50,280 nucleotides of DNA from Candidatus Falkowiibacteriota bacterium (GTDB lineage Bacteria > Patescibacteriota > Patescibacteriia > Patescibacteriales > Patescibacteriaceae): the NCBI GenBank assembly GCA_903897785.1, contig CAIUCZ010000049.1, positions 1-50,280 of the forward strand. The letters run 5' to 3'. The notes beneath the pieces are model-generated. The model saw only the letters and a program-made list of their open reading frames with translations. It ran no database searches and was not told the DNA's origin. The stretch's first letter is position 1; every line of letters begins with the position of its first letter. This document shows positions 23,893 to 48,245 of this stretch, piece after piece. The position numbers and the translations under genes were made by a program.

Positions 23893-23960
23893 ACTTTATG
23901 AACTTTTAACTTCCTGCCCGAAGTGCTACGCTTAACGTTGCAGGCGGGTAAACTTTTAAC
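23893..23960. repeat. F1 units with a nested GC-rich palindrome
   Basis: TGAACTTTTAACTT is interrupted by CCTGCCCGAAGTGCTACGC...GTTGCAGGCGGG (23913-23948) and resumes as AACTTTTAACTT. Confidence 0.8.
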
Positions 23961-23966
23961 TTATGG

Positions 23967-23988
23967 GGCCTTTTCGTCTATCGGTTAG
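23967..23988 (+). pseudogene. Exact 22-nt copy of the tRNA-Glu 5' end
   Basis: GGCCTTTTCGTCTATCGGTTAG is identical to nucleotides 1-22 of the intact tRNA-Glu at 24057. It stops in the D-loop and continues into a double-hairpin element. Confidence 0.9.
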
Positions 23989-24056
23989 TCGCCTCTTCGG
24001 CGACCCGCCGATGAGGCGGGGACATTTCATTTATAGGCAAAAACAAAAAACAATTT
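23989..24056 (+). mobile_element. Double-hairpin (REP-like) element abutting tRNA-Glu
   Basis: The 68-nt segment begins TCGCCTCTTCGGCGAC (hairpin 1) and CCGCCGATGAGGCGG (hairpin 2, an inverted version of hairpin 1). An AT-rich tail then leads to the intact tRNA. It is flanked by the 22-nt direct repeat. A 70-nt relative lies in the same position upstream of tRNA-Lys. Confidence 0.6.
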
Positions 24057-24128
24057 GGCCTTTTCGTCTATCGGTTAGGACATTGGATTCTCATTCCAAG
24101 AAGACGGGTTCGACTCCCGTAGAGGCTA
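24057..24128 (+). tRNA. tRNA-Glu (CUC)
   Basis: A complete cloverleaf: acceptor GGCCTTT/AGAGGCT with a G-U closing pair, D stem GTCT/GGAC, anticodon stem TTGGA/TCCAA with loop TTCTCAT (anticodon CTC), and T arm ACGGG-TTCGACT-CCCGT. CCA is not encoded. An intrinsic terminator follows at 24135. Confidence 0.93.
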
Positions 24129-24134
24129 CAAAAA

Positions 24135-24176: not shown

Positions 24177-24338
24177 TAAACAATCAAGGGAGTCGAGCAG
24201 GTTGGAAGCGAGCTAGCCTGAGGGACGAAGGCGCAGCGAGCGTCGTCCCGATGCCCATCGGGGCGCCAACCCTGGACAAGCGAGTCCGGCCCAGCGGACG
24301 AGCGCGGAACTCCTGTAGGAGCTACAAAAATAAAAAGC
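24177..24338. repeat. GC-rich segment ending in a degenerate copy of the tRNA-Glu 3' end
   Basis: This stretch has no gene. It holds small palindromes (CCCGAT/ATCGGG at 24247-24262; GGAC/GTCC at 24273-24286) and repeated GCGAGC words. At 24309-24338, ACTCCTGTAGGAGCTACAAAA matches ACTCCCGTAGAGGCTACAAAA at the tRNA 3' end (24113) with few mismatches. It looks like an old duplication or attachment-site remnant. Confidence 0.5.
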
Positions 24339-44305: not shown

Positions 44306-44383
44306 TGTCATCCTGAGGAACGAGGGATCTCTTACGCCTAAAGCTTAAGAATTAAGAGATCCCTCGCAAGGCTCGGGATGACA
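44306..44383. repeat. Paired REP-like element
   Basis: TGTCATCCTGAGGAACGAGG-GATCTCTTA and TAAGAGATCCCTCGC-AAGGCTCGGGATGACA make one long inverted repeat with an F5-like centre. Confidence 0.88.
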
Positions 44384-44424
44384 AAACCTTATTTTTAATT
44401 TTTAATTGTCATTTTGCATTTTGA

Positions 44425-47925: not shown

Positions 47926-47996
47926 AAAGGTTGGGTTTTACTCTAAAACTCAAGTAATACCAAACTATAGGACTTTTTTAAGAATTTGTCAATGGG

Positions 47997-48069
47997 TGCG
48001 TCGTACTGGATTCGAACCAGTGACCTTGTGCTTAAAAGGCACCTGCTCTACCAACTGAGCTAACGACGC
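47997..48069 (-). tRNA. tRNA-Lys (UUU)
   Basis: Cloverleaf on the minus strand: acceptor GCGTCGT/ACGACGC, D stem GCTC/GAGC, anticodon loop CTTTTAA (anticodon TTT) with a G-A mismatch at the top of the anticodon stem, and T arm CTGG-TTCGAAT-CCAG. CCA is not encoded. Confidence 0.93.
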
Positions 48070-48139
48070 TTATTAATTGTAAAAACCTGCTTCCGCCTCC
48101 TCGGCGGATCGCCCATCGGCTAAGTCGCCGATGAGGCGA
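48070..48139 (-). mobile_element. Double-hairpin (REP-like) element abutting tRNA-Lys
   Basis: On the minus strand the 70-nt segment begins TCGCCTCATCGGCGAC, directly after GTAG of the partial tRNA copy. It contains CCGCCGAGGAGGCGG and ends in an AT-rich tail before the intact tRNA. The two hairpin words match the tRNA-Glu element at 15/16 and 14/15 positions. Confidence 0.6.
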
Positions 48140-48161
48140 CTACCAACTGAGCTAACGACGC
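48140..48161 (-). pseudogene. Exact 22-nt copy of the tRNA-Lys 5' end
   Basis: GCGTCGTTAGCTCAGTTGGTAG equals nucleotides 1-22 of the intact gene. It is the same length and ends at the same D-loop position as the tRNA-Glu copy. Confidence 0.9.
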
Positions 48162-48245
48162 AAAAATGTAAAAAAATATAGCGGTTGAGCTAACTTTGTC
48201 TAGGTTAATATAAAACTTTAAAAAAGGCAAGTCCTGGCTTTATTC

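Follow-up and report, generated by a model that had tools for sequence, protein, structure and literature searches.

Results

Interrupted tRNA copies at the Lys and Glu loci

The window, the whole 50,280-nucleotide stretch of DNA that was analysed, carries on its minus strand an intact tRNA-Lys(ttt) gene and, 5′ of it, a partial copy of the same gene that is broken by a hairpin element. Read 5′ to 3′, the features of the locus are:

48175..48202 (-): promoter-like site TAGACA-16-TATATT, just 5′ of the interrupted copy (consensus scan, 10/12 matches)
48140..48161 (-): interrupted ("decoy") copy of tRNA-Lys, nt 1-22, GCGTCGTTAGCTCAGTTGGTAG, an exact match to the intact gene
48092..48139 (-): hairpin element at the 3′ edge of the D-loop, comprising GTCGCC-TCATC-GGCGAC, an extra inverted arm, and TCCGCC-GAGGA-GGCGGA
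48085..48091 (-): tRNA-Lys nt 23-29 (AGCAGGT), resuming 3′ of the hairpin element (read from sequence)
47995..48069 (-): intact tRNA-Lys(ttt), the sole TTT lysine tRNA found in the genome

The exact repeat of tRNA-Lys nt 1-22 that an earlier note on this DNA had described was found at 48140-48161(-), with TCGCCTCATCGGCGAC directly after it. The same arrangement was present on the opposite strand, as the note had stated, at tRNA-Glu(ctc), where the whole of it spans 23967-24129(+) and is followed by an element of another kind:

23967..23988 (+): interrupted copy of tRNA-Glu, nt 1-22
23989..24020 (+): double-hairpin element of the same family as the Lys element, TCGCC-TCTTC-GGCGA and CCCGCC-GATGA-GGCGGG
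24021..24026 (+): tRNA-Glu nt 23-28 (GACATT), resuming 3′ of the element
24057..24129 (+): intact tRNA-Glu(ctc)
24188..24325 (+): second kind of tRNA-linked element, 3′ of tRNA-Glu, in three parts

The interruption lies at a common D-loop position in both copies, as had been claimed, but the proposed simple cut at nt 22 did not stand: tRNA sequence resumes past the hairpins at both Lys and Glu, which makes each an insertion into the D-loop rather than a truncated copy. The insertion point was placed at A21^G22, the boundary of D-loop and D-stem, since one G serves both GGTAG and the closing pair of hairpin 1. The elements measure 48 nt at Lys, with the extra internal inverted arm, versus 32 nt at Glu. 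They are related, though not through an identical hairpin word as had been supposed, since the Glu word (TCGCCTCTTCGGCGAC) differs from the Lys word by one loop base. The compensated closing pair of hairpin 2 was seen again, as T-A in Lys (TCCGCC..GGCGGA) and C-G in Glu (CCCGCC..GGCGGG). We likewise agree that the resemblance is not due to chance: allowing up to 3 mismatches, the hairpin word occurs at 5 sites versus 0.46 expected, and the cross-locus background of partial tRNA matches is 0.024 per tRNA flank. The window's tRNA-Thr(tgt) is without an interrupted copy, also as described.

The second-kind element at Glu consists of an inverted T-arm piece (24188-24196), a GC-rich core of ~110 nt, and a degraded direct copy of the tRNA-Glu 3′ end (24307-24325). 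In this genome, tRNA-Arg(cct) and tRNA-Pro(cgg) have a similar element on their 3′ side, as do several tRNAs in the relatives G002 and G009, and none of the loci tested gave an Rfam match above the gathering score. On the other side of the locus, 5′ of the Glu copy, a palindrome-like repeat CCTGCCCGAAGTGC..GCAGGCGGG was observed at 23912-23948; repeats related to it interrupt tRNA copies in G002 and G009.

The consensus promoter scan found no site between the interrupted Lys copy and intact tRNA-Lys, only the one 5′ of the copy, and the RNA folds of the copies were stronger than those of shuffled sequence (z = -4.2 for Lys, -3.8 for Glu). Stable folds, compensated pairs and promoter placement would all suit a functional leader, transcribed before tRNA-Lys, whose fold regulates transcription or RNase P processing. 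The promoter evidence at Lys is weak and does not generalise, however, as the pattern of a promoter 5′ of interrupted copies was not significant across 15 loci (p = 0.39). Partial copies also occur downstream of tRNAs, most tRNA genes have none, their positions and hairpins vary by locus, and relatives do without them, all of which leaves a leader function improbable.

Partial tRNA copies across genomes

The genome that holds the window (G000) is an 869-kb draft in 78 contigs, 96% complete, and probably of Patescibacteria (CPR) type, judging from its size and its relatives. Partial copies were found at about 10 of its 44 tRNA genes (nine plus Thr(ggt)), nearly always on the same strand as the tRNA. 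Besides the D-loop, interruptions fall in the anticodon loop (Tyr), in the T-loop (Arg, Pro, Ser and others) and, in relatives, at 12^13; at most loci read, the copy continues until the arm that bears the hairpin closes. Differing cut positions, which the earlier note had listed as a point against its reading, therefore do exist, but they do not imply chance or artefact; they indicate that tRNA-targeting insertions with a link to GIY-YIG nucleases form a wider class.

We compared partial copies with small GIY-YIG ORFs in eight genomes, all of one family. Four genomes with at least two such ORFs each had copies at 9/44 (G000), 16/39 (G002), 12/28 (G009) and 8/42 (G008) tRNA genes, while three genomes without small GIY-YIG ORFs had them at 0/44 (G003), 0/39 (G012) and 0/37 (G010), or 45/153 versus 0/120 genes overall (Fisher p = 2e-13). 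The eighth genome (G004), which has one small GIY-YIG ORF and none beside a tRNA, showed no same-strand copy among 42 genes, only one stray inverted 12-mer. Counted by genome, copies were observed in 4/4 with two or more ORFs versus 0/4 with none or one (p = 1/70). G008 and G012, two members of one genus, differ in copies as their GIY-YIG counts predict.

The copies have a consistent geometry. Upstream copies represent the 5′ part of the tRNA in 22/25 cases and downstream copies the 3′ part in 23/29, as expected when an insertion is followed by rebuilding of the displaced half. Fragments that flank tRNA genes usually come from integrase-mediated integration, and downstream 3′ fragments are its classic product. 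If an integrated element had made the tRNA the attachment site of a tyrosine or serine integrase, its remnant would be expected to include a displaced half beside a rebuilt intact tRNA, and the downstream 3′ fragments fit this as well. The units here span only 60-400 nt, however, and hold a GIY-YIG ORF or none; no integrase was seen in the loci read, and both the hairpins in the relics and the upstream 5′ relics are foreign to integrases. We therefore think it quite improbable that an integrase made them.

Repeats do break contigs in this draft: the Thr(ggt) copy straddles a contig break, with C54 and C59 both ending within it. Many assemblies made independently nonetheless share this anatomy, with sequences particular to each tRNA, and we give an assembly or sequencing artefact almost no credence. 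Misassembly, a concern of the earlier note, is excluded by the same arrangement in independent genomes.

The hairpin family

With A or T allowed in the loop, the hairpin-1 word has seven matches in the window genome, which correspond to six loci, since those on C54 and C59 come from a single locus split between the ends of these contigs. Four are at tRNA copies, namely Lys, Glu, Thr(ggt) and Thr(cgt), and two are non-tRNA sites (C22 and C30). At Thr(cgt), the element interrupts the 3′ part of a second tRNA, a part that is otherwise complete. The hairpin pair is preceded by GTAG, TTAG or GCAG, and the two non-tRNA sites have GTAG or GCAG. One hairpin pair is thus common to different tRNAs, and each copy retains the sequence of its own tRNA.

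Across an alignment of nine D-loop copies, which includes one non-tRNA site (L001) and in which Lys was entered minus its extra internal arm, hairpin 1 is invariant. Hairpin 2 shows two compensated pairs, with two unpaired cells at one pair; the T-A closing pair of Lys is outside the pairs counted. Copies may hold more than one hairpin, as in tRNA-Val of G002, where a single copy has several, at 12^13, 21^22 and the T-loop. Multiple hairpins per copy in relatives indicate that hairpins accumulate in relics, either because the same machinery places them there or because relics tolerate them. GC-rich hairpins within 130 nt of tRNAs reach a density of 1.2-1.8 per kb in genomes with copies versus 0-0.35 in the others.

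The single hairpin CCCGCC..GGCGGG is dispersed in 12 exact copies, some apparently within protein genes. The hairpin CCCGCCGATGAGGCGGG, or near variants of it, was seen apparently within coding sequence at six loci (L050, L056, L059, L061, L064 and L066), recalling the palindromic elements inserted in Rickettsia genes. A self-splicing tRNA intron was considered and rejected: searches of six loci against Rfam gave tRNA alone above gathering scores, with no intron family, and a complete intact tRNA stands alongside.

REP palindromes carry a GTAG foot. The family described here resembles REP/RAYT systems in its dispersed palindromes, its direct and inverted pairs and a GTAG-like foot before the hairpin, although at the tRNA copies the GTAG is the tRNA's own D-loop. 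REP-like palindromes might accordingly insert autonomously at the loop edges of neutral tandem tRNA duplications, with the GIY-YIG genes as mere neighbours. The dispersed single hairpin, the two non-tRNA hairpin pairs after GTAG or GCAG and the copies with several hairpins (G002 Val) all favour this account. It leaves three things unexplained, however: the absence of copies in the three GIY-YIG-free genomes, the placement of ORFs between copy and intact tRNA, and the 5′/3′ geometry. No Y1_Tnp domain (PF01797) was found in the 96%-complete window genome, on which ground transposition by RAYT was rejected, and we consider the REP-like account unlikely.

Long forms with a GIY-YIG ORF

The Lys and Glu elements of the window contain no GIY-YIG ORF. 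Elsewhere, a GIY-YIG ORF lies between the relic and the intact tRNA. The form with the window's own hairpin pair comes from a relative of the same order (L081), in which tRNA-Gln nt 1-22 is followed, at the same D-loop site, by this hairpin pair, GACAATA, a GIY-YIG frame and intact tRNA-Gln; this frame, the sole ORF found with exactly this hairpin pair, has two stops. The window genome itself has the long layout at two genes. Its Tyr locus (C54) runs from tRNA nt 1-35 through hairpins, TAAATCTGC and an intact GIY-YIG ORF to intact tRNA-Tyr. Its Leu locus (L084, on C25) has a 5′ relic with hairpin, intact tRNA-Leu, the GIY-YIG ORF and a 3′ relic with hairpin. The two Leu relics match each other in the acceptor stem (GCCGATG / CATCGGC) but do not match intact tRNA-Leu there, and by their sequence it looks as if the C25 element had brought a different tRNA-Leu with it.

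Relatives have the long layout at Lys (L095), Val (L112), Leu (L088), Ser (L107), fMet (L109) and Gln (L116), with intact ORFs at Lys L095, Val L112, Leu L088 and Ser L107, as at Tyr C54 and Leu C25. At L112 (1501-1746), the GIY-YIG ORF overlaps intact tRNA-Val and stops at the TAG of the D-loop. Searching public genomes with the L107 protein as the only query also recovered the long layout, with intact ORFs, in Thermodesulfobacteriota, Moraniibacteriota and Parcubacteria (L119, L121, L129, L130). The tRNA-Ser genes of Syntrophaceae (L119, L121) have a duplicated leader and 5′ half whose anticodon loop contains a double hairpin; the ORF and then the intact gene follow. No flank gene was common to the window and L095, L077, L080, L081 or L112. 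In G009, a GIY-YIG ORF by tRNA-Lys(ttt) lies beside a homologue of the window's neighbour gene, whose family matches two ORFs in that genome, so that orthology is unproven.

Among small GIY-YIG ORFs of the window genome and relatives, 11/29 loci are within 300 nt of a tRNA, versus 3.4% by density (p about 1e-9). A second set gave 22/40 within 400 nt, a rate that is inflated because some of its loci were found with a tRNA-linked query. Of the 69 loci, 33 are near a tRNA (300-400 nt or less), and all 33 ORFs lie on the strand of the tRNA, an agreement that is not accounted for by query bias. A repeat in inverted pairs, GTCATCCCGAG..GAGGGATCTCTTA, was observed 5′ of the window's tRNA-Thr (44330-44390); it also flanks two other GIY-YIG ORFs of the genome (C1, C75; L082, L085), which suggests a separate GIY-YIG-linked repeat family.

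The tRNA-linked nucleases are about 80 aa long. In nine of them, Y5, Y16, G18, R26 and E62 are invariant and correspond to the GIY-YIG catalytic residues; none of the nine reaches the NCBIfam cut-off, and they share no stretch conserved enough for a profile scan. A PDB search with one of the nine showed resemblance to UPF0213 proteins and, weakly, to I-TevI. On a tree of 61 proteins, which is rough because it rests on few columns, tRNA linkage is clustered (12 changes versus 19.9 when shuffled, 0/500). The linked proteins do not form one clade, and one well-supported side holds 30/35 linked proteins. In phage and plasmid collections, one tRNA-linked nuclease had only sparse, distant relatives. 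With catalytic residues and a gene beside its putative target, the tRNA, the long forms show two features expected of a free-standing GIY-YIG homing element.

Discussion

We interpret the Lys and Glu features, with a probability of roughly 0.6, as ORF-less versions of a mobile element whose targets for homing are tRNA genes. A small GIY-YIG nuclease would cut within a loop of the tRNA gene, in the window's case the 3′ edge of the D-loop, and repair by recombination would insert the element and provide a new copy of the displaced half. One intact tRNA would always remain, with the displaced half left as an adjoining, hairpin-marked relic, and loss of the ORF would yield the short forms of the window. 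Our best guess is that hairpins at the interruption point of the relic might bar its cleavage, its recombination partnering or its competition with the tRNA.

Several observations weigh against homing. The Lys and Glu elements lack an ORF, the sole ORF with their exact hairpin pair is degenerate, and the intact tRNA retains the presumed target site. The association comes from eight genomes of one family, and the linked nucleases do not form one clade. Single hairpins and the two hairpin pairs outside tRNAs indicate that hairpins can spread by another route. As the window elements have no nuclease, we class them as probable derivatives of tRNA-targeting GIY-YIG homing elements and not as proven members of that group.

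Among experimental work, the closest precedent is SegB, a free-standing GIY-YIG homing endonuclease of phages T4/T6, whose gene likewise adjoins tRNA genes and which cleaves inside them (PMC13096335; review PMC2988022). The motif that SegB favours, RAWTSGAAC, is the T-loop sequence GTTCSAWTY in reverse complement, and the enzyme brings about tRNA amplification through recombination (PMC13096335). The elements here are bacterial and their proteins, at about 80 aa, much smaller, and neither interrupted, hairpin-bearing tRNA copies nor ORF-less short forms are among the SegB features described in the portions of these sources on which we draw. RNA hairpins are also known close to the start codons of homing endonuclease genes in T4 (PMC2988022), and by analogy the hairpins just 5′ of the ORF could have a second role of this sort. 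Short GC-rich double hairpins that are dispersed and thought to be mobile are described from organelle DNA of Allomyces and sponges (PMC2800124, citing Paquin et al. 2000), whereas those here sit at the interruption point of a tRNA copy by an intact tRNA and are tied to GIY-YIG ORFs. Integrative elements with tRNA attachment sites share the displaced tRNA piece and the rebuilt intact tRNA; the units described here differ in being tiny, in having upstream 5′ relics and relic hairpins, and in coding for a GIY-YIG nuclease where those elements have an integrase.

The features at Lys and Glu belong to a wider and apparently undescribed pattern. The freely accessible literature yielded no report of hairpin-interrupted tRNA copies tied to bacterial GIY-YIG genes. 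More tentatively, and with somewhat less than even confidence, we propose a widespread class of bacterial selfish elements in which ~80-residue GIY-YIG nucleases home into tRNA loops and rebuild the tRNA. Mobile hairpins at the loop edge would accompany them and disable the displaced half, giving rise to nuclease-free derivatives that spread among tRNA genes. Being essential and highly conserved, tRNA genes are ideal targets for selfish DNA, provided they can be rebuilt. If this is true, the SegB theme of phages would extend to cellular genomes of several phyla. It would offer a possible reason why some small genomes have many small "GIY-YIG nuclease family" proteins without an assigned role, and it would account for the tRNA fragments and hairpin-riddled pseudo-tRNAs that hamper annotation.
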